Shown here piece by piece: positions 5,914 to 37,044 of a stretch of 64,000 nt of DNA (position 1 is its first letter; each line of letters opens with the position of its first letter). A program made the position numbers and the translations under genes. This DNA comes from Thermoplasma sp. Kam2015 (lineage in GTDB: Archaea > Thermoplasmatota > Thermoplasmata > Thermoplasmatales > Thermoplasmataceae), in assembly GCF_003205235.1 (NCBI RefSeq), contig NZ_QJSM01000005.1:1-64000 (forward strand), read 5' to 3'. Under the pieces are notes generated by a model that saw only the letters and a program-made list of their open reading frames with translations, was not told the DNA's origin and ran no database searches.

Positions 5914-6094
5914 AAAGTAGGATCAGTACCATCTGAATTCATGCCTTTTTGGATCGAAATACCCATAACCATATCACTGTACATGATTCACAATAACTTT
6001 TTCTCGCAAAGTGAAACTGCAGTTTGGCCGCAAGGGAATAGGGCTAGGTCTTCGAATAAGGGGGATCTGATGCTTTAGCCAAGTAGTAGCTCAC
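5914..6094 (+). mobile_element. decayed TnpB-type right end, copy B
   Basis: AAAGTAGGATCAGTACC and the following bases align with AAAGTAGGATCGGTGCG of copy C (9628 onward), so this is the same TnpB C-terminal/right-end sequence in a more decayed state; the central palindrome is broken by substitutions. The 3' part (GATGCTTTAGCC, then GTAGCTCAC ending at 6094) again matches copy C. A weak left-end-like motif lies near 5774. The interval 5737-6229 otherwise contains no gene apart from promoter sequence for the gene at 6230. Confidence 0.6.
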
Positions 6095-6229
6095 TGGATA
6101 TTAAAAATAAAATAAATCTACAGACGCCAATAAATTTTTAGATACCGCATCGCAATTTAATGTTCAAACACCATATTAAATCTAAATTATTGTGTATAAA
6201 GATTTTGAACTACATCTCGATCGAATTTC

Positions 6230-9389: not shown

Positions 9390-9757
9390 GAGATACACGG
9401 ACGCCTCTCAATGGAGATATTTACGGATATATTCATCATCTCCATAATAATTGATAACAGCTGCCAGAGTGAAGCTGTATCTAACGCATAAGGATGCAGA
9501 AAAATTGTTACTGAACTCTGGATCATGATCTGAAATTATCCGATCGTATATACCACTGTGATGCATGCGGTTTAACGATCGACAGGGATTACAACGCATC
9601 GAAGAGCATAAAAAGATTGGATTGACAAAAGTAGGATCGGTGCGATCCGAATATATGCCTATGGAGATCGCTACTTCGGGCTTGTACGGATGTTCGGAGA
9701 GGCAGAGGTCTCTCCGATGAAGGGAAGCTCAGATGCTTTAGCTTAGGGGAAGCTCAC
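9390..9757 (+). mobile_element. internally deleted TnpB-type element, copy C
   Basis: The element starts with the shared left-end motif GAGATACACGGAC (9390) and ends with GGAAGCTCAC at 9757. Inside it carries the fossil of the TnpB C-terminus and the palindrome GGATCG-GTG-CGATCC (9634-9648). Its 3' part (CAGATGCTTTAGCTTAG) matches copy B and differs from copies A, F and G, so it represents another subfamily. The whole interval 9324-9792 contains no intact gene. Base composition is AT-rich to its left and near-balanced to its right, so it marks the edge of a probable genomic island. Confidence 0.75.
9515..9719 (+). pseudogene. tnpB C-terminal fragment (IS605/IS1341-type), frameshifted
   Basis: Codons 9515-9625 read a TnpB zinc-finger end: LSDRIYHCDACGL then TIDRDYNASKSIKRLD and a stop. 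This is the second Cys pair (CxxC) and the conserved DRDxNAS motif of TnpB/Cas12-like nucleases. The frame starting at 9616 continues it as IGLTKVGSVRSEYMPMEIATSGL, the usual TnpB tail, so loss of one A in the A-run near 9610-9614 would explain the break. The N-terminal part with the first RuvC residues is absent. The protein is dead; the RNA-coding right end is retained. Confidence 0.85.
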
Positions 9758-9792
9758 ATCTCAGAATGTTAGAAATCTTGTTACGCGATCAA

Positions 9793-21007: not shown

Positions 21008-21075
21008 TCTCCCATCTGGTTTTACTTAAATATTTTATTTCCATCTTTCATCCAGATATTCCATTTTAAACGGGA

Positions 21076-21309
21076 GTTGCGAGTTTGTGTAGGCTTTGAA
21101 ACTTTAACATTCGATAATCAGGCATTCGGATCTTCTTCAGCAGGAATATTTAATGAAAAATAATTGCAAGACTCATAAGAACGTGATCGCTGCGATCCGA
21201 ATACTGATCTGTTTAAATCACGATAAAGTGCACATGCGGAATATATTCGTACATGCATAGGTTTTTCACTGAAGGTAAGATTAGATGATTAGGCTGAGAA
21301 GCAAATCAT
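21076..21309 (+). mobile_element. miniature TnpB-type element, copy D (229 bp identical to copy E)
   Basis: Bases 21076-21304 are identical to 26799-27027, and the last five bases differ only at two positions from the CTCAC end of copy E. The core has GATCG-CTG-CGATC (21184-21196), equivalent to the palindrome of copies A and C, then a GGAATATATTC hairpin and an end related to CTGAGAAGCAACTCAC. No protein is coded. Both copies begin 4 or 5 bases after TTTAAAC, which may mark the insertion target. It lies between rps7 and the HTa gene and fills most of that 360-bp gap. Confidence 0.8.
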
Positions 21310-21367
21310 CGTATGTAGAATATATTAGAATAGAATCAATAAAAATCAAAAATTATAAAAAATACCC

Positions 21368-21640
21368 TTACTGCTGGTATTTTATCTTGCTTGAAGCCCT
21401 GAACACGAATTTCTTCTTGGACGGGACCTCAATTACCTTCTTTGTCTGCGGGTTCCTTGCCTTCCTCGGACCCTGCGTTCTTCTCTCGAATATTCCAAAG
21501 CCAGCAAGGTTTATCTTCTGGCCGCCGTTGGCCTGAGCGACTATCTCATCCAGAAAAGACTTTATTACGGTTCTTGCCACTTTCTGGGTGGTGTTTGCCT
21601 TCTTTGCTACCTCCTTGGATAGCTCACTAATTCCTACCAT
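21368..21640 (-). CDS. hta: HTa, bacterial HU-type histone-like DNA-binding protein
   Basis: A 90-residue HU/IHF-family protein: an N-terminal helical dimerisation half (ISELSKEVAKKANTTQKVA), the core FGIFERR, and the DNA-binding beta arm with the RNPQT tip motif followed by a Lys-rich strand. HU proteins are bacterial; Thermoplasma is the classic archaeal exception, having acquired HU in place of archaeal histones, where it coats DNA as the main chromatin protein. The start is supported by GGTGGT 5 bases upstream and a TATA-like box. The gene stands alone, fitting strong constitutive expression. Confidence 0.97.
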   Translation of the reverse strand: MVGISELSKEVAKKANTTQKVARTVIKSFLDEIVAQANGGQKINLAGFGIFERRTQGPRKARNPQTKKVIEVPSKKKFVFRASSKIKYQQ

Positions 21641-21645
21641 CTTTT

Positions 21646-21686
21646 ACCACCTATATGATAATAACATAGGAAGTATTAAAATATTT
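21646..21686 (-). promoter_or_regulatory. promoter and ribosome binding site of HTa
   Basis: On the minus strand a TATA-like AAATATTTTAATAC (21673-21686) precedes the HTa start by about 35 to 45 bases, and GGTGGT (21646-21651) lies 5 bases before the ATG. This predicts a short 5' leader with a Shine-Dalgarno site, unlike the leaderless genes nearby, consistent with a very abundant protein. Confidence 0.55.
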
Positions 21687-21985
21687 CTATCATGTTTTAA
21701 TTAGAATAAAGCGAATACGCAGTCTGCCAATATTCATAATTTATAATAAAAATTATGCCGATTAATTATTTACTACAGGTGCAGAAAAATCAGTATTTAT
21801 TCATATTTCACAATTATTCATAAATATGCGATATGCATCCTATTATAAATATTAAATAGTTCTGCTCAGAATATGTCTGACATTAGGTATTACAAGAATT
21901 TTATTAGCATTCACGGACACCTCTGGGGTGATCGAGAATCGCAGATAAGTCAACAGTAATTTATATCACTTAAAAATGGAAGCCT
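21687..21985. other. AT-rich spacer with one or two left-end-like fragments
   Basis: No gene is visible between HTa and the CopD-like gene. GCGAATACGCAGTCTGCC (21711-21728) matches the left-end motif of the miniature elements (closest to copy F), and GCATTCACGGACACCTC (21907-21923) resembles the version in copy C. Neither has an associated right end, so they may be solo left-end remains. A TATA-like ATTTATATCAC lies about 20 bases before the next gene. Confidence 0.35.
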
Positions 21986-22489
21986 ATGAGCATAATTGGC
22001 GTATTACTTGCCGTACTCATAATACATGTGTTTGCAGCAATGATATTCATTGGTGGTTCTCTGTTCATATGGTTCATCGTGTGGCCAGCTTCATACAAGG
22101 CCACATCAGACGAGAGCGAGAGGACAAAGATAGTTGGTGTCATAGGTCGATATTTCGGATGGTGGACAGATGCAACTGTTGCAATACTGCTGGTCACAGG
22201 GGCATATCTTGGGTATGAGTATGTTGGCGGCAATCTCTCGCTGCTGACAACGACACTCGGTGGGCAAATACTGCTCATCAAGGTGATAATCGTATGGATA
22301 ACCATTGTTCTTATGTATGCCAACAATATATATCATGGTAAACTGATAATGAGGCTGGCAGAAGAGAAAAAGTATGATGAGATGAAGAGGATAAGAAAAA
22401 TAACTCACACTGCATCATTCATAACACTGGCTCTACTGCTCGTAATAATGGGGCTTGCCGTTGCTCTGCAGTTCTTCATGCCTGCCTAA
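21986..22489 (+). CDS. CopD-like four-helix membrane protein
   Basis: A 167-residue protein with four hydrophobic segments: residues 3-32, about 55-75, about 85-110 and about 140-165. The first begins with IIGVLLAVLIIHVFAAM and includes a membrane His, as in CopD/YozB/DUF2269-like proteins that bind haem or copper. A His-free charged loop (residues 113-135) separates helices 3 and 4. It would sit in the cytoplasmic membrane. Haem or copper binding is inferred from family resemblance only. It stands alone and is convergent with the genes at 22486. Confidence 0.65.
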   Translation: MSIIGVLLAVLIIHVFAAMIFIGGSLFIWFIVWPASYKATSDESERTKIVGVIGRYFGWWTDATVAILLVTGAYLGYEYVGGNLSLLTTTLGGQILLIKVIIVWITIVLMYANNIYHGKLIMRLAEEKKYDEMKRIRKITHTASFITLALLLVIMGLAVALQFFMPA

Positions 22490-22776
22490 TCTTTTGTCAT
22501 CAATTTTTTTCTTTCTTTTGCAGAATATCCTGTGAGTTTTTCTATGAAATCATTGTATTCCTTTATAACGGACAATTTATCTGCGCCGCTATCGTAATCC
22601 CCGGTATTTACAAGCAGCTTCTTTTTGTCAGGTTTTATCTCTATTCTTGAGATTCCCGGTATAGAGGTTATTATCAGATCTCCCTCTGTTTTCACCTCAT
22701 ATCCAAGCTGAGATATCTTTGCCTTGACCCCCTCATAGTCCGTTGGAAAGCCTCTCTTTACAGGATAATCTCGCAT
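22486..22776 (-). CDS. small conserved archaeal protein (DUF5611-like)
   Basis: A 96-residue alpha/beta protein of a small family known mainly in euryarchaea (I think DUF5611; no function established). It has alternating strands and helices, RGFPTDYEGVKAKISQLGY and ISRIEIKPDKKKLLVNT. Its start codon follows the stop of the endonuclease-IV-like gene without a gap, so the two are translated together. It may assist that enzyme. Four bases overlap the end of the convergent CopD-like gene. Confidence 0.65.
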   Translation of the reverse strand: MRDYPVKRGFPTDYEGVKAKISQLGYEVKTEGDLIITSIPGISRIEIKPDKKKLLVNTGDYDSGADKLSVIKEYNDFIEKLTGYSAKERKKLMTKD

Positions 22777-23802
22777 TCAATCACCCGATACAGGTTTCTC
22801 AGCGATCTTCTTCCTCTGCATCTTTTTGAAATAGGATCTCACATATATTATTTGCATGTACTGTGCATCGTGCTCCAGCAATGGAGAAGATGATATTATG
22901 GTCATATCATCTGGATAGTCTATAAGATACTCAGAGAGTGTTTCAAACTTCAGAGTTCCATGTTTGATAGCGGTCAGCCTCCTCTCCTCGTTGTCCGTGA
23001 ATTCTACACCAGAGAATTCCGTGTAAAGATCATATTTTGCATATTTTTTGAATTCGTTTATGACATTTTCAAAATCCTTTATCTCAACGAGGGATCCTCC
23101 GGTTATGGCATGTACGTGTGCGAAATTCAGGATTGGCTCTATGTCTATTCTCTTTGCTAGCTCAATGACCTCTTTTACTGTCCCAAAAACTTCCTGCTTT
23201 CCAGATGTCTCAACACCAATGTATGGATAACCATTCTCGGGAGAGAATTCGCTCAATATATCTGAATATACCTCTGCGAATTTATTCAAACTATCCTTCT
23301 TGCTCCCATGATAGAACCCAGAATGCGTTACGATGCGCCTCGCTCCAAGATATTTTCCAAGAATAAGCGTCCATCTCAGGTGATTAATCGATTTTTCGGC
23401 TATGTCTGGAGATCCTATAAGATCCATGTAATATGGTGCATGCATCGATAGTGTAACGTCAAGTTCCTTTGCCAGTTCGCCCCCAGTCTCAAGTTCATCA
23501 TAATTCTTTGCCATGTTCCAGAAAAGCTCCTGCACTATGTCATCTTCCTCTATCTCTGTGTCTATGCCCACGCTCCTGTAGTTCCCGTTTTCATCCTGTC
23601 TCAGGACATCTATTATTATTGAATCCTCAACATCGTAGGGTCTCAAACCAGTATACTCTTCGGCAGAATTCTCCTGGACGTTGACGCGGAGCAGCTGCAC
23701 CTCAAGTGCATTCAAACCCAGGTTATGCGTTTCTTCGACTGAATCTATAAAAGTCCTTCCCTTACTTGTGAGTGGGATCCCAGCAATACCGAATCTTATC
23801 AT
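22777..23802 (-). CDS. AP-endonuclease-IV-like TIM-barrel protein
   Basis: A 341-residue protein of the xylose-isomerase/endonuclease-IV TIM-barrel superfamily: FGIAGIPL, LNALEVQLLR, LSMHAPYYMDL, RRIVTHSGFYHG, YPYIGVETSGKQ, EPILNFAHVHA and DLYTEFSGVEF follow the barrel strand order and place His, Glu and Asp metal ligands where Nfo has them. It probably cleaves abasic sites in DNA repair, but sugar isomerase-like relatives look similar. It is in an operon with the small protein at 22486. Confidence 0.75.
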   Translation of the reverse strand: MIRFGIAGIPLTSKGRTFIDSVEETHNLGLNALEVQLLRVNVQENSAEEYTGLRPYDVEDSIIIDVLRQDENGNYRSVGIDTEIEEDDIVQELFWNMAKNYDELETGGELAKELDVTLSMHAPYYMDLIGSPDIAEKSINHLRWTLILGKYLGARRIVTHSGFYHGSKKDSLNKFAEVYSDILSEFSPENGYPYIGVETSGKQEVFGTVKEVIELAKRIDIEPILNFAHVHAITGGSLVEIKDFENVINEFKKYAKYDLYTEFSGVEFTDNEERRLTAIKHGTLKFETLSEYLIDYPDDMTIISSSPLLEHDAQYMQIIYVRSYFKKMQRKKIAEKPVSGD

Positions 23803-24000
23803 GTATAACCTTAATATTGCTATTTAATTGACCTATAAATATCTGACCATCATCGTATCAATGCGTAAAAAACATTCCTGGTCTGACATTTCGATCGACT
23901 TCGACATGTGAAAGGCTTCATAGAATACATTATATATCATTTATGCATTTGTTAATTTGATGCCGATTTTAGGTGGTAATGTTAATATCATTATCATTCA

Positions 24001-24009
24001 AAAAGGTGA
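24001..24009 (+). promoter_or_regulatory. ribosome binding site that decides the dnaG start
   Basis: AAAAGGTGA lies 5 bases before the ATG at 24015, favouring that codon over the in-frame ATG at 23973, whose additional 14 hydrophobic residues are not part of archaeal DnaG. Confidence 0.55.
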
Positions 24010-24014
24010 TATGG

Positions 24015-25319
24015 ATGAACGTAGATCCAAATTTAACAAAATACATGATCAAGGCGAAGATATATACCGATGGGGTGGTTGAAAAACCAGATGTTGTTGG
24101 TGCTATATTTGGTCAGACTGAAGGATTGCTCGGAGACGATCTAGATCTCAGGGATCTCCAGAAGAGTGGGAAGATCGGGAGGATCGAGGTCGAGATAGAC
24201 AGCAAGAAGGGCAGAACCGAGGGTTATGCCCTCATTCCATCAGGTCTGGATCAGGTAGAAACAGCCATACTTGCGGCCGCACTTGAAACCATAGACAGGA
24301 TAGGTCCATGCAAGGCCAGGGTAGAGATAGCAAACGTTGAGGATGTCAGGGTTCAGAAGAGACAGAAGATCATAGAGAGAGCTAAAAAGATATACCAGGA
24401 GATGAACAGCAAGGGCGACGATCTCAGCGAAAGCCTGGTAAAGAGCGTCAGGGAGGAAGTTGAGAAATCTGAGATCATATCATATGGTGAAGAGAAGCTT
24501 CCGGCAGGTCCTGCAATCAATGATTCGGATTCGATAATCGTTGTTGAGGGCAGAAATGATGTACTCAATCTTCTCAAATATGGGATAAAGAACACAATAG
24601 CTGTTCAGGGCACCAACATACCGGATACGGTGAAGAAGCTTTCCAAGGAAAGGACGGTGACAGTCTTTCTGGATGGCGACAGAGGCGGTGATCTCATACT
24701 GAAGGAGATGCTTCAGGTCGCTGAGGTAGACTTTGTTGCAAGAGCGCCTCCCGGAACCGAGGTAGAAGAATTGACGTACAAGCAGATAGTGAAGGCCCTC
24801 AGATACAAGACACCAATAGACCAGTATCTATCAATGCATGGCATGAACGATGAACTTAAGGAGTACTCACAGAGAAACAACATAGTCTTCGGCTCGCAGC
24901 AGAACAACAACCATGAGGCAAAGGCTGAGGTTGTTGAAGAGCCTCAGGATCAGTCTCCAAAGGTTGAGGAGATCCATGAAGAACAGTCCCAGCAGGTAAC
25001 GGTGCAGAAGGAGGGCTTTCTTGACCTGCTAAACCCACACGAAGTCTCCAAGAGAATAGAGGCACTTGCCCAGCTAAAGATGACTGAGGTATACGATTCA
25101 AATGGAGAAAAGCTGTTTTCCTTTCCTGTTTCGGAGGCTGTGGAGAGGATATCTCAGGATCCTAAGGGGAACACCGTCATAACGGGTGGCGTGATCTCCC
25201 AGAGGCTCATAGACGTATCCTATAACGCTGGGATAAAGAATATATATGGCCTCAAATTGGGTCATATCACCAAAAAGCCCGTTGATATAAACGTGATAGC
25301 ATGGGAACGTTCTATGTAG
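24015..25319 (+). CDS. dnaG: archaeal DnaG-type primase
   Basis: With the preferred start the protein is 434 residues. The N-terminal archaeal DnaG domain (VDPNLTKYMIKAKIYTDG) is followed by a Toprim domain with E178 in IIVVEGRNDV and D220/D222 in FLDGDRGGD, then a Gln/Glu-rich linker (about 290 to 340) and a C-terminal domain. Archaeal DnaG associates with the exosome and has been reported to have primase activity; it lacks the bacterial zinc-binding domain. Its last 19 bases overlap the start of the Lon-like ATPase gene, so they are co-translated. Confidence 0.94.
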   Translation: MNVDPNLTKYMIKAKIYTDGVVEKPDVVGAIFGQTEGLLGDDLDLRDLQKSGKIGRIEVEIDSKKGRTEGYALIPSGLDQVETAILAAALETIDRIGPCKARVEIANVEDVRVQKRQKIIERAKKIYQEMNSKGDDLSESLVKSVREEVEKSEIISYGEEKLPAGPAINDSDSIIVVEGRNDVLNLLKYGIKNTIAVQGTNIPDTVKKLSKERTVTVFLDGDRGGDLILKEMLQVAEVDFVARAPPGTEVEELTYKQIVKALRYKTPIDQYLSMHGMNDELKEYSQRNNIVFGSQQNNNHEAKAEVVEEPQDQSPKVEEIHEEQSQQVTVQKEGFLDLLNPHEVSKRIEALAQLKMTEVYDSNGEKLFSFPVSEAVERISQDPKGNTVITGGVISQRLIDVSYNAGIKNIYGLKLGHITKKPVDINVIAWERSM

Positions 25320-26782
25320 ATTTTTATAATGAATATCCTGATACTTCGTATATAAAAATACCAACAAACCCTCTGGACAGGGTTATTGGTCAGGATGATG
25401 CCGTCAAGATAGCCATGGTTGCAGCCAAACAGAAGAGACATCTGTTGCTTGTGGGCCCTCCAGGTGTCGGCAAGTCAATGATAGCTCAGGCGATGTCATT
25501 CTACATCGAGCGCCCGACGGAGGAGATAAGGGTCGTTCATAACCCACAGTATCCAGAAAGGCCATTCGTTGAGATAAAGACAAGGGAAGAGGTTATGGCT
25601 GAACGCGAGGAGGAAACATCCACCTCTGGTCTCATAATAGATCCAAAGGAGGCTCCGACAAGCGTCGCTGAACGCCTTGGATACAGATGCAGCAAGTGTG
25701 GCTTCTATTCCTCACCATCAGATGCCGTCTGCCCCAACTGCAATTCACCAAAGGTCCAGATGGGAACGCAGGGCCCATTCGGAGACGTTTTCAATGTCAT
25801 AGGAGCAGCCTTTGGAGTCCAGAATAATCTGGATAAGGTCACATTGACTAGAAGGAATGGGGATCATGACGAGATCATTGTCTATGAAAGATATAATGAC
25901 AAGATAAGAGTTCTGGATGAGAAAACGCTTGAAAGGAGGAGAAGGCTTGAGAAGAAGAGTCCAAGCAAGACCATCGTTCCAATAGACAGGAATCCGTTCG
26001 TTCTTGCGACCGGTGCAAGTGAAACGGAGCTTCTTGGTGATGTGAGGCATGATCCTTATGGAGGGCATCCACAGCTCGGAACACTCCCATACGAAAGGGT
26101 TATAGCTGGTGCGGTGCATGAGGCGCATCAGGGCGTTCTGTTCATAGATGAGATAACCCATCTTGGTAATCTCCAGAGGTATATACTCACGGCCATGCAG
26201 GAGAAATCATTCCCGATAACTGGCAGGAATCCTCAGAGTGCAGGTGCCAGCGTGCGCGTAGATAAGGTCCCAGCTGACTTCATACTGGTTGCTGCCTGCA
26301 ATATAAACGATCTTCCATATATACTGAGCCCGTTGAGATCGAGGATAGTCGGTAACGGTTATGAGGTACTCATGAAGACAACGATGAAGGACACCGACGA
26401 GAACAGGATGAAGTACCTTCAGTTCATTTCGCAGGAGATAACGATGGACGGAAAGATACCGCATATGACAATGGAAGCGGCTGAATTGATAATAGAGGAA
26501 GGCAAGAAGAGAGCCAAGATGATCGACAAGAAGAACAACGAACTCACCCTCAGGCTTAGAGAGCTTGGAGGTCTCATAAGAGCTGCAGGAGATATAGCGG
26601 TTTTCAAAGGTAACAAGCTGATAGAAAAAGAGGATGTTGAGGAGGCAGTTAAACTTTATGTGCCTGTTGAGGAAAAGATAACCAAGGAATACGGTAGCAT
26701 GGCAGCCGCGTATTCATCTGAGAATACGACCTCTCAGAAGGATTTCTACAACTACAACCTTGACGATCGATCATATGAGTGA
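25301..26782 (+). CDS. Lon-like AAA+ ATPase with inserted zinc ribbon and no protease domain
   Basis: A 493-residue protein related to archaeal LonB by its ATPase part: Walker A GPPGVGKS (52-59), Walker B GVLFIDEI (279-285), sensor region DFILVAACN and an arginine-rich SPLRSRI. Between the Walker motifs it has four cysteines C130, C133, C144 and C147 (CSKCG and CPNC) forming a zinc ribbon, where LonB has membrane helices. The Ser-Lys protease domain of Lon is absent; the protein ends after the AAA+ lid. It probably acts as a chaperone or nucleic-acid-linked remodeller. The overlap with dnaG suggests a link to DnaG or exosome function. Confidence 0.85.
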   Translation: MGTFYVDFYNEYPDTSYIKIPTNPLDRVIGQDDAVKIAMVAAKQKRHLLLVGPPGVGKSMIAQAMSFYIERPTEEIRVVHNPQYPERPFVEIKTREEVMAEREEETSTSGLIIDPKEAPTSVAERLGYRCSKCGFYSSPSDAVCPNCNSPKVQMGTQGPFGDVFNVIGAAFGVQNNLDKVTLTRRNGDHDEIIVYERYNDKIRVLDEKTLERRRRLEKKSPSKTIVPIDRNPFVLATGASETELLGDVRHDPYGGHPQLGTLPYERVIAGAVHEAHQGVLFIDEITHLGNLQRYILTAMQEKSFPITGRNPQSAGASVRVDKVPADFILVAACNINDLPYILSPLRSRIVGNGYEVLMKTTMKDTDENRMKYLQFISQEITMDGKIPHMTMEAAELIIEEGKKRAKMIDKKNNELTLRLRELGGLIRAAGDIAVFKGNKLIEKEDVEEAVKLYVPVEEKITKEYGSMAAAYSSENTTSQKDFYNYNLDDRSYE

Positions 26783-26798
26783 TCACTTTAAACTTGAC

Positions 26799-27032
26799 GT
26801 TGCGAGTTTGTGTAGGCTTTGAAACTTTAACATTCGATAATCAGGCATTCGGATCTTCTTCAGCAGGAATATTTAATGAAAAATAATTGCAAGACTCATA
26901 AGAACGTGATCGCTGCGATCCGAATACTGATCTGTTTAAATCACGATAAAGTGCACATGCGGAATATATTCGTACATGCATAGGTTTTTCACTGAAGGTA
27001 AGATTAGATGATTAGGCTGAGAAGCAACTCAC
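26799..27032 (+). mobile_element. miniature TnpB-type element, copy E (229 bp identical to copy D)
   Basis: The copy has the same 229 bases as copy D and a cleaner right end, CTGAGAAGCAACTCAC, finishing at 27032; this aligns base for base in length with CTGAGGAGTGGCTCAC of copy A. Sequence beyond this point (from 27033) differs from copy D, which fixes the boundary. It fills the 323-bp gap between the AAA+ gene and hisS, and its 3' end lies about 75 bases before the hisS start, so transcription from it could reach that gene. There is no open frame. Confidence 0.8.
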
Positions 27033-27114
27033 CGAAAGAATAGGTTAGATATCGAAACGATCGGAATAAAAATAAATATATACCGTTCCACAATTTTATC
27101 GAAAGGTGTCACCA

Positions 27115-34628: not shown

Positions 34629-35591
34629 ATGGAACATGTAACGAGAAAGGTTCAGGTCACTGGGGGTTCCACGTTTATAATATCACTCCCGCCCGAATGG
34701 GTTAAGCGCAACAATATAAACAAGGGAAGCGAAGTTTCTATAATCGATCAGGGAACAGAACTGTTGGTGGAACCCGCAAATAATGAGAAATCTGAGGTAA
34801 CGAAGAAGATAACGCTGCCGACCTCATACACCGGTAAGCCACTGCAGAGGCTTCTGACATCTATGTACATCTCTGGATTCGACACTCTGCTTGTTGTATC
34901 CAAAGACAAGATGACGCCAGAGATGAGAGACGACATTAAGCGGTTTGCCAAGGTTGTCATGGGCATAGAGGTAATTGAAGAAACATCAAAAAGCATAGTT
35001 CTTCAGAACGTATTGAATGCAAACACTTTTTCTCTAGAGAAGGCAATAAGGAGAATGTCGCTCAATGTTTCCACCATGATAGAGGACACGATCAAGGCAA
35101 TACATGATGAAGACGACGATCTGATTGAAAACATCGTGCTCAGGGATGATGAGGTGGACAGATACCAGTGGTATATATACCGTGAGGTTAAGATAAGATG
35201 CAGGGACGAACGCTCGAATATCTACATACTCGTCCTTTCCAGGATTCTTGAAAGGATAGCTGATCATGCTGTCAACATCTGCCAGGCCATAAAGCACAAA
35301 AAGGGCATAAAGGGAAGGGATAAGATGATCGACAATCTGACCTATTCAAACGACGTATACAAGAAGGCCATGGAAACATTCTATTCCAGGAATTTCAACG
35401 AAATAGACGGGATAATAAACAGAAAGGCCGAAATAACCCAGAGAAAATATGAGCTGCTGAGTGAATTGAGTTATGATTCGGTTCTGAGTTCGATAGCCGA
35501 GGAGATATCCAGGATAGGATTGTACGGAACGGATATAGCAGAGCTTGCCATGGATCTGATTCTGTCAGATAGGGAAGAATTCTCCATCTGA
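34629..35591 (+). CDS. AbrB-type DNA-binding domain fused to PhoU domain (phosphate regulator)
   Basis: A 320-residue protein. Residues 1 to about 50 are a SpoVT/AbrB-like swapped-hairpin DNA-binding domain (TRKVQVTGGSTFIISLPPEWVKRN), and the rest consists of two PhoU-type three-helix bundles with acid-rich metal sites such as HDEDDDLIENIVLRDDEVDRYQW. Archaeal proteins of this design are thought to control phosphate uptake. No pst transporter is in the window. A TATA-like box is centred about 26 bases before the ATG. Confidence 0.88.
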   Translation: MEHVTRKVQVTGGSTFIISLPPEWVKRNNINKGSEVSIIDQGTELLVEPANNEKSEVTKKITLPTSYTGKPLQRLLTSMYISGFDTLLVVSKDKMTPEMRDDIKRFAKVVMGIEVIEETSKSIVLQNVLNANTFSLEKAIRRMSLNVSTMIEDTIKAIHDEDDDLIENIVLRDDEVDRYQWYIYREVKIRCRDERSNIYILVLSRILERIADHAVNICQAIKHKKGIKGRDKMIDNLTYSNDVYKKAMETFYSRNFNEIDGIINRKAEITQRKYELLSELSYDSVLSSIAEEISRIGLYGTDIAELAMDLILSDREEFSI

Positions 35592-35698
35592 CGATCCTGA
35601 TGCATCGTCCTTATGGAAAGAAACATAATTCGTAAAAGCTCTAAAATATTGAAAGGCTAGGGATTTCCAGGATCAGTAAAAATTCTTATTTCGAGCAG

Positions 35699-35888
35699 GG
35701 AATACGCAGACTTCCATCGATAATAAAATTTTATATAAAGTACGTACGATCGATAAGAATGGGGCAGACGCCACCTGAAAACGCGCCTAAGGACATTATG
35801 ATGCAGAGCATGTACGGAATATACCAATACAGACATAAGTCTCTTCGCTGAAATGACGATGCGAAGATTCAGCTGAGGAGTAGCCCAT
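35699..35888 (+). mobile_element. miniature TnpB-type element, copy F, with pseudoknot-capable end
   Basis: The left end GGAATACGCAGACTTCC matches that of copies A and G, and the right end is CTGAGGAGTAGCCCAT (ending 35888), close to the copy A end but with the last bases changed. The 3' part holds TCTTCG (35842-35847) and GCTGAA (35847-35852) whose complements CGAAGA (35862-35867) and TTCAGC (35868-35873) occur in the same order, so the helices interlock as an H-type pseudoknot. TGTACGGAATATACC (35811) matches copies A and C. It lies between the PhoU-like gene and the membrane protein at 35941; the rest of the interval has nothing recognised. Confidence 0.72.
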
Positions 35889-35940
35889 CGGGATACATGT
35901 GCTCAAATTTAAATATCACATTTGCGGTAATCCCCGCATC

Positions 35941-36657
35941 ATGCCAGTAAATGCAAACATCAGAAAGTACAATTCTGTGTTCATACTGATAATCACGGCT
36001 CTTCTGGCCTATGGTCTGGGATACTTCGTTTCTTATTTTGAAAGTCTGTTTCTTCTCGTATTTCTGGTTCCAATCGTAATTCTGATTTTAATGCATTATC
36101 TTGGTCTCTATGGATTAAAAAAGAGGTTGATTTACGGTGTAGTCATAGTTTTCATAGCTGCATTGTTGATATCATCCGCGGAATCACAGGTTTACTACTC
36201 GACCGATCATCCAGTTTCCGCCTCATACGGAAGTATAACCGCTACTGCGAATGTCAGGCCATTTTCAGGTAACTTCCCTGCATACAACTTTTCCCTGGCT
36301 CTAGACAACTATAAGGATCTGAAAACGCTCAATTTCAGTCTGCACATAGCATCCTCAGCTTACAGCGCAAACATAACCACGCAGCTGAAGAACTACACCT
36401 CTGGAAATCAGATGATAGTTTACTATGTCGCGCCATCAGGTTCGCTGCCGCTTGGCATATACAACTATACATTCACGTTTGCAAACTACAGCCTAACGGC
36501 GCCAGGGCCAATAAATGCACCGCTGAATACCTGGCTTGCTGACAGCGTGTTATTTGCAACAATACTCTACTTCATCTACTATGAAATCATACTGCTGGCA
36601 GGCATATTCTTGATGAGATCGATAGAACATTCCAGATCTTATAGAAATAAAAAATAA
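35941..36657 (+). CDS. hypothetical membrane protein with extracytoplasmic domain
   Basis: A 238-residue protein that I do not recognise. Three N-terminal hydrophobic segments (within about the first 90 residues) are followed by a Ser/Thr/Asn-rich outside domain with many N-x-S/T sites (for example NFSL, NITT, NYTS) and a last membrane helix (WLADSVLFATILYFIYYEIILLAGI in part). The start at 35941 is supported by AAATTTAAATATC about 25 to 35 bases upstream; an upstream frame from 35899 adds 14 residues. Potential glycosylation sites fit a cell-surface protein of an acidophile without a wall. It sits between two miniature elements. Confidence 0.75.
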   Translation: MPVNANIRKYNSVFILIITALLAYGLGYFVSYFESLFLLVFLVPIVILILMHYLGLYGLKKRLIYGVVIVFIAALLISSAESQVYYSTDHPVSASYGSITATANVRPFSGNFPAYNFSLALDNYKDLKTLNFSLHIASSAYSANITTQLKNYTSGNQMIVYYVAPSGSLPLGIYNYTFTFANYSLTAPGPINAPLNTWLADSVLFATILYFIYYEIILLAGIFLMRSIEHSRSYRNKK

Positions 36658-36750
36658 GAAATATTAAATTTTATAAATAAACGATCATTTATGCCAAAGC
36701 CTTTGTCATGGATTTTTGGGAAGCTGTAGATCTCAATAGCTTCAGTGAAA

Positions 36751-36972
36751 GAATACACGGTCTTCCCCTGGAAAGATCCATAAATTATCATTCCGATTTC
36801 TTCTCTGTATCATCCGCAAAAAAGCAGGCGGCGTGGTGCTTGAGTAAGATTGATTAAATACGAATTACGCCTATGGATATCACGATACAGGGCTTGTGCG
36901 GAATATGTGCGTACAGGCAAATATTTCTTCGCTGAAATAACGGTGAGAATATTCAGCTGATAAGCAGTTCAC
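36751..36972 (+). mobile_element. miniature TnpB-type element, copy G
   Basis: It starts GAATACACGGTCTTCCCC and ends CTGATAAGCAGTTCAC at 36972. GCTTGTGCGGAATATG (36892) matches the corresponding part of copies A and C. It keeps the GCTGAA/TTCAGC helix of copy F, while its TTCTTC helix is only partly complementary. No TnpB reading frame remains. It is the main content of the 387-bp gap between the membrane protein and aconitase; the following 70 bases include the aconitase promoter. Confidence 0.7.
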
Positions 36973-37044
36973 CATGGTTGCCAATCGCAGATGTATCAAT
37001 AATGTTAAACGAAAAGGTATAATCTGATCTAGCTATATCTGAAT

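Follow-up and report, generated by a model that had tools for sequence, protein, structure and literature searches.

We identified two copies of a tnpB-less, IS605-type element that share 229 identical bases in a 64,000-nt stretch of the Thermoplasma sp. Kam2015 genome (the window: positions 1 to 64,000 of contig NZ_QJSM01000005.1; window features are all given on the + strand). Both sites hold old insertions, which very probably were homogenised later by ectopic gene conversion reaching no further than the element itself, rather than by a recent jump. The copies are direct repeats, 5.7 kb apart: copy 1 (complete element of about 240 bp, 21070-21309) lies where rps7 and HTa converge, between their 3′ ends, and copy 2 (complete element of about 241 bp, 26792-27032) separates hisS from a gene for an AAA+ ATPase.

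Sequence comparison within the window gives a maximal exact match of 229 nt, from 21076 to 21304 in copy 1 and from 26799 to 27027 in copy 2; the 95% upper bound on the present divergence between the two tracts is 1.3%. The identity ends 5-7 nt inside both element ends, where the two sites differ: on the right the tract is followed by ATCAT in copy 1 and CTCAC in copy 2 (two of five bases differ), and on the left it is preceded by TTTAAAC and then GGGA in copy 1, or TTTAAAC and then TTGAC in copy 2. Beyond the elements the flanks are unrelated. The other family members in the window, at 751, 9633, 35761, and 36846, are clearly diverged (63-72% identity in the stretches compared); the whole genome holds no third close copy of the 229-mer, the next best match being 94% over 34 nt. 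No ORF of note was found in either copy, and Rfam (at gathering thresholds) and ARAGORN reported nothing in the window. These results agree with the first-pass annotation of this DNA as to the 229 identical bases amid heavily diverged copies, the right ends differing at two of five bases, the unrelated flanks, and the offsets of 4 or 5 bases from TTTAAAC; the further exact copies that it proposed to look for were not found in the genome. It had also taken the copies for a protein-free mobile element, which is correct as to their origin, and TTTAAAC for a hint of target choice, which is borne out below.

Copies 1 and 2 are PATE-like derivatives, lacking tnpB, of an IS200/IS605 (IS1341-type) family. 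The TnpB C-terminal domain (PF07282) has 38 matches in the genome; full-length elements start with AGGAAGGTTAGGAGTTTGAGGGAAGCAGTAAAACTC after TTTAT, TTTAA, or GTTAT, and main-group tnpB genes are directly followed by about 130 nt of conserved sequence ending in GTAGCTCAC, beyond which the copies diverge. The left ends of the window copies (from 21070 and 26792) align with the full-length left ends, though they are divergent, and their right halves align with this conserved downstream sequence, finishing in (A/C)TCA(C/T), like the CTCAC of full-length elements. Since both ends align with those of tnpB-bearing elements, we regard the copies as derivatives of about 240 bp without tnpB. The middle aligns with what precedes the tnpB start in full-length elements and is joined to the right end (21144-21182 in copy 1, by alignment with the full-length element L019); it is TATA-like and may act as a promoter. 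The right end itself, an omegaRNA-like segment by alignment and base pairs, covers 21183-21310 in copy 1, which keeps the 5′ GATCG/CGATC hairpin, and 26906-27033 in copy 2, which has the canonical CTCAC end.

TTTAT, TTTAA, and the one-base-shifted reading TTAAA dominate before the recognisable left ends of the family; TTTAAAC is an instance of its TTTAW insertion motif, with the TTTAA target/TAM motif at 21065-21069 for copy 1 and at 26787-26791 for copy 2. Subterminal palindromes (CTCCG...GGAG) are visible by eye in the ends of full-length elements and are decayed in the two window copies. The genome has one intact gene for the Y1 transposase TnpA (PF01797), which could act in trans. The only TnpA-bearing element (L035) shares a left-end palindrome, GCAAGAAAGCTCCGACCTTCAGGGAGGAGAT, seen by eye, with one tnpB-only element (L028), which suggests mobilisation in trans.

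To count the family we used R1, a covariance model of the right end built from 19 copies, among them both window copies, whose own scores (113.5 bits for copy 1 and 116.1 bits for copy 2) are to be read with that in mind. At E <= 0.001, R1 has 99 matches in this genome (1.79 Mb), 71 in Thermoplasma sp. KMA_Bin19, and 37, 19, and 1 in three other congeners; part of them likely come from related groups with insertions. A script flagged upstream tnpB sequence in 13 of 65 sampled matches from the window's genome, and a real tnpB adjoins about 12 of the 65, one of those flagged (L120) being borderline. Within the window, R1 marks the right ends of three more tnpB-less members, at 751-879 (142.9 bits; the whole element runs from near 611, after TTTAT), 35761-35889 (102.3 bits), and 36846-36973 (105.7 bits), and a decayed full element at 9527-9758, in which a tnpB 3′ remnant (PF07282 match) precedes the right end (123.4 bits). 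A weaker match with an insertion (38.5 bits) at 5919-6095 possibly belongs to a related IS group.

The sites of both copies are also occupied in KMA_Bin19 (the genome whose contig C46 is NZ_JAGDXM010000046.1): family remnants, diverged and with their cores deleted, stand at the corresponding position of each junction, between matching flanks, and throughout the region KMA_Bin19 is collinear with the flanks in the window. The remnants lack 166 and 169 bp relative to the window copies; R1 detects them with 34.6 and 31.1 bits, neither having been used in building the model. Both insertions are therefore older than the split from KMA_Bin19. In the three other congeners we saw no element at either junction, and divergence there prevents a base-exact reading of the empty sites that the first-pass annotation had suggested looking for at rps7-HTa and AAA+-hisS.

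In the window, the two paralogues resemble each other more closely than either resembles its orthologue, and both of their sites already held an element when the species diverged. By hand count, the two KMA_Bin19 remnants differ from each other at 11 of 42 shared bases (about 26%), and the tract in the window has 7 of 42 differences from one of them and 8 of 42 from the other; what is compared at each site is a short remnant, about 42-80 nt long, in a MAG of low coverage. Third codon positions of six neighbouring genes are 10-19% different between the two species, and orthologous elements with shared, not near-identical flanks are mostly 73-93% identical (7-27% different). The probability of no difference in 229 bases is about 4e-10 at 9% divergence and about 3e-19 at 17%, the family divergence, a value at which chance identity is excluded. 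The conversion would be recent relative to the species split; its direction cannot be read, because the tract is nearly equidistant from the two remnants.

The tips of the two copies point the same way. About 5 of their 12 positions differ, compared with 0 of 229 inside (Fisher's exact test, p about 1e-7 (1.2e-7), with tips totalling only about 12 nt and cells counted and entered by hand). These differing tips favour conversion, because transposition carries the tips along and conversion need not. Elements were already present at both junctions, rps7-HTa and AAA+-hisS, when the split from KMA_Bin19 took place; in the course that we propose, non-crossover ectopic homologous recombination would afterwards, in the lineage leading to the window, have replaced the interior of one copy with that of the other, the tract reaching the limits of usable homology and leaving the outermost 5-7 nt at each end site-specific. 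The machinery of this conversion, which is itself read from the pattern, would presumably be RadA-dependent break repair using the nearby copy, the simplest option. A crossover would delete the intervening genes, among them those for HTa and for a DnaG-like primase; survivors would thus be expected to stem from non-crossover events only. In the published model, TnpB cleaves the donor joint once it is empty, and the break is then repaired from the sister copy (PMC8612924); such repair alone would not homogenise differently flanked sites, since the element is restored at its own site. We discarded a GENECONV-like permutation test of the family members: it gave many hits, dominated by mixed left-end subtypes and by L129, a poorly aligned member whose left end is missing.

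The family has been mobile, since one member, on contig C19 of the window's genome, is missing at a clean empty site in KMA_Bin19. The site reads TATTTAA-[AGGAAG...CTCAC]-AAAGATAAG with the element and TATTTAAAAGATAAG where it is intact in KMA_Bin19, with no target duplication, and in two further congeners the spacing of matches leaves no room for the member. It belongs to a pair (L131, G000 C19:19700-24500) of two members 2.35 kb apart and 96.4% identical, in which the identity begins exactly at the target motif; one of the two is a lineage-specific and probably local insertion. The differences within this pair are uneven, with none in the first 118 alignment columns and nine in the rest (p = 0.001, an optimistic value, as the boundary was placed at the first difference).

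This mobility gives some ground for recent transposition, by which one of the window copies lately moved to the other site, possibly after an older resident had been lost, with TnpA acting in trans; the one intact TnpA gene and the TTTAA before both copies are in keeping with it. We consider it unlikely, and the two sites themselves largely refute it: each holds a remnant in KMA_Bin19, between the same flanks, and the identity does not reach the termini, whereas transposition moves complete ends. Very improbable, too, is an assembly artefact in which one repeat consensus was placed twice; the assembly is in 63 contigs, and other contigs do end at IS copies, but the collinearity of the flanks with KMA_Bin19 stands against it, and the differing tips imply that the copies were resolved separately.

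Strong functional constraint, for example on a non-coding RNA, is a scarcely credible way of holding the copies identical: omegaRNA-like hairpins are kept in them, but KMA_Bin19 has lost 166-169 bp of each copy, the sequence is kept in no relative, and elsewhere orthologous elements are mostly more diverged than their flanks. Of the three causes among which the first-pass annotation had left the choice, the remnants at both sites thus favour conversion and weaken the other two; the annotation's own check against recent movement, which looked to the same sites in other species, has this outcome. A rather far-fetched extension would make the tnpB-less copies stand-alone guide-RNA genes, in which sequence from upstream of tnpB is fused to the omegaRNA scaffold and dozens of guides serve TnpB in trans, with recurrent local conversion maintaining the scaffold and sparing the site-specific guides. 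The omegaRNA-like right end shows compensatory changes in 4 of 17 pairs, with a covariation term of only -0.83, and the folding z-score of copy 1 (-0.66, from a single sequence) is not significant.

Similarity between members goes with proximity. Among 1326 tnpB-less pairs sampled in this genome (the better-scoring part of the census), the top two have spacings of 5.7 kb and 2.35 kb, whereas just 20 of the 1326 lie within 10 kb, giving (20/1326)(19/1325) = 2e-4. Because the C19 pair includes a genuine lineage-specific insertion, this pattern does not come from conversion alone. A second case of a near-identical interior with different tips may be L166 of KMA_Bin19 and L175 of the window's genome, which are 97.8% identical over 227 nt and differ in tips and flanks; it is read from one base and a contig break, as the KMA_Bin19 contig covering one end of the L175 site (C56) begins inside the element and has the L166-type base at the single diagnostic position covered. 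In a further comparison, L121 and the KMA_Bin19 element L154 have a matching upstream flank, nearly identical ends, and a diverged middle, which suggests mosaic exchange between family members.

The kind of element is already known from the palindrome-associated transposable elements (PATEs) of Haloquadratum walsbyi, which are likewise transposase-free, derived from IS605 elements by core deletion, inserted without target duplication at a short target oligonucleotide, and far more numerous than the full transposons (PMC3119063). PATEs undergo further repeat-mediated core deletions, seen in relatives (PMC3119063), and the core losses in KMA_Bin19 resemble these. They differ in sequence and belong to another archaeal order, and the PATE paper does not mention gene conversion (PMC3119063). 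Like ISDra2 and other TnpB-bearing IS200/IS605 elements, this family inserts next to a short AT-rich motif, on its 3′ side and with no duplication, and has, in its full-length elements, a right end that encodes a guide-RNA scaffold (PMC8612924); unlike ISDra2, the window copies have neither tnpA nor tnpB, follow TTTAW instead of TTGAT, and are known here only from their sequence. The homogenised interior between unrelated flanks is shared with ectopic gene conversion between other dispersed repeats, the difference being that here it would have acted within a 240-bp element in Thermoplasma, by machinery that is presumed. A partial literature search found no papers on this IS605-type family in Thermoplasma, and the proximity-linked homogenisation may be a modest new observation. 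The two copies would offer a small, well-bounded natural case of archaeal ectopic gene conversion, with both termini and an orthologous reference, and the family, at about 99 right-end matches in 1.79 Mb, is large enough to measure conversion against distance. They also carry a warning: how recently dispersed elements moved cannot be told from their sequence identity.

Elsewhere in the window, a tract of about 1.4 kb at 35500-36900, which holds two tnpB-less elements, matches KMA_Bin19 at 96-100% identity (mostly 99-100%), in surroundings of 91-98%, as if swapped between lineages by recent homologous recombination. We rejected the 98-99% identity of these two elements (35761 and 36846) to KMA_Bin19 as a sign of constraint, since it extends over the flanks and is regional.
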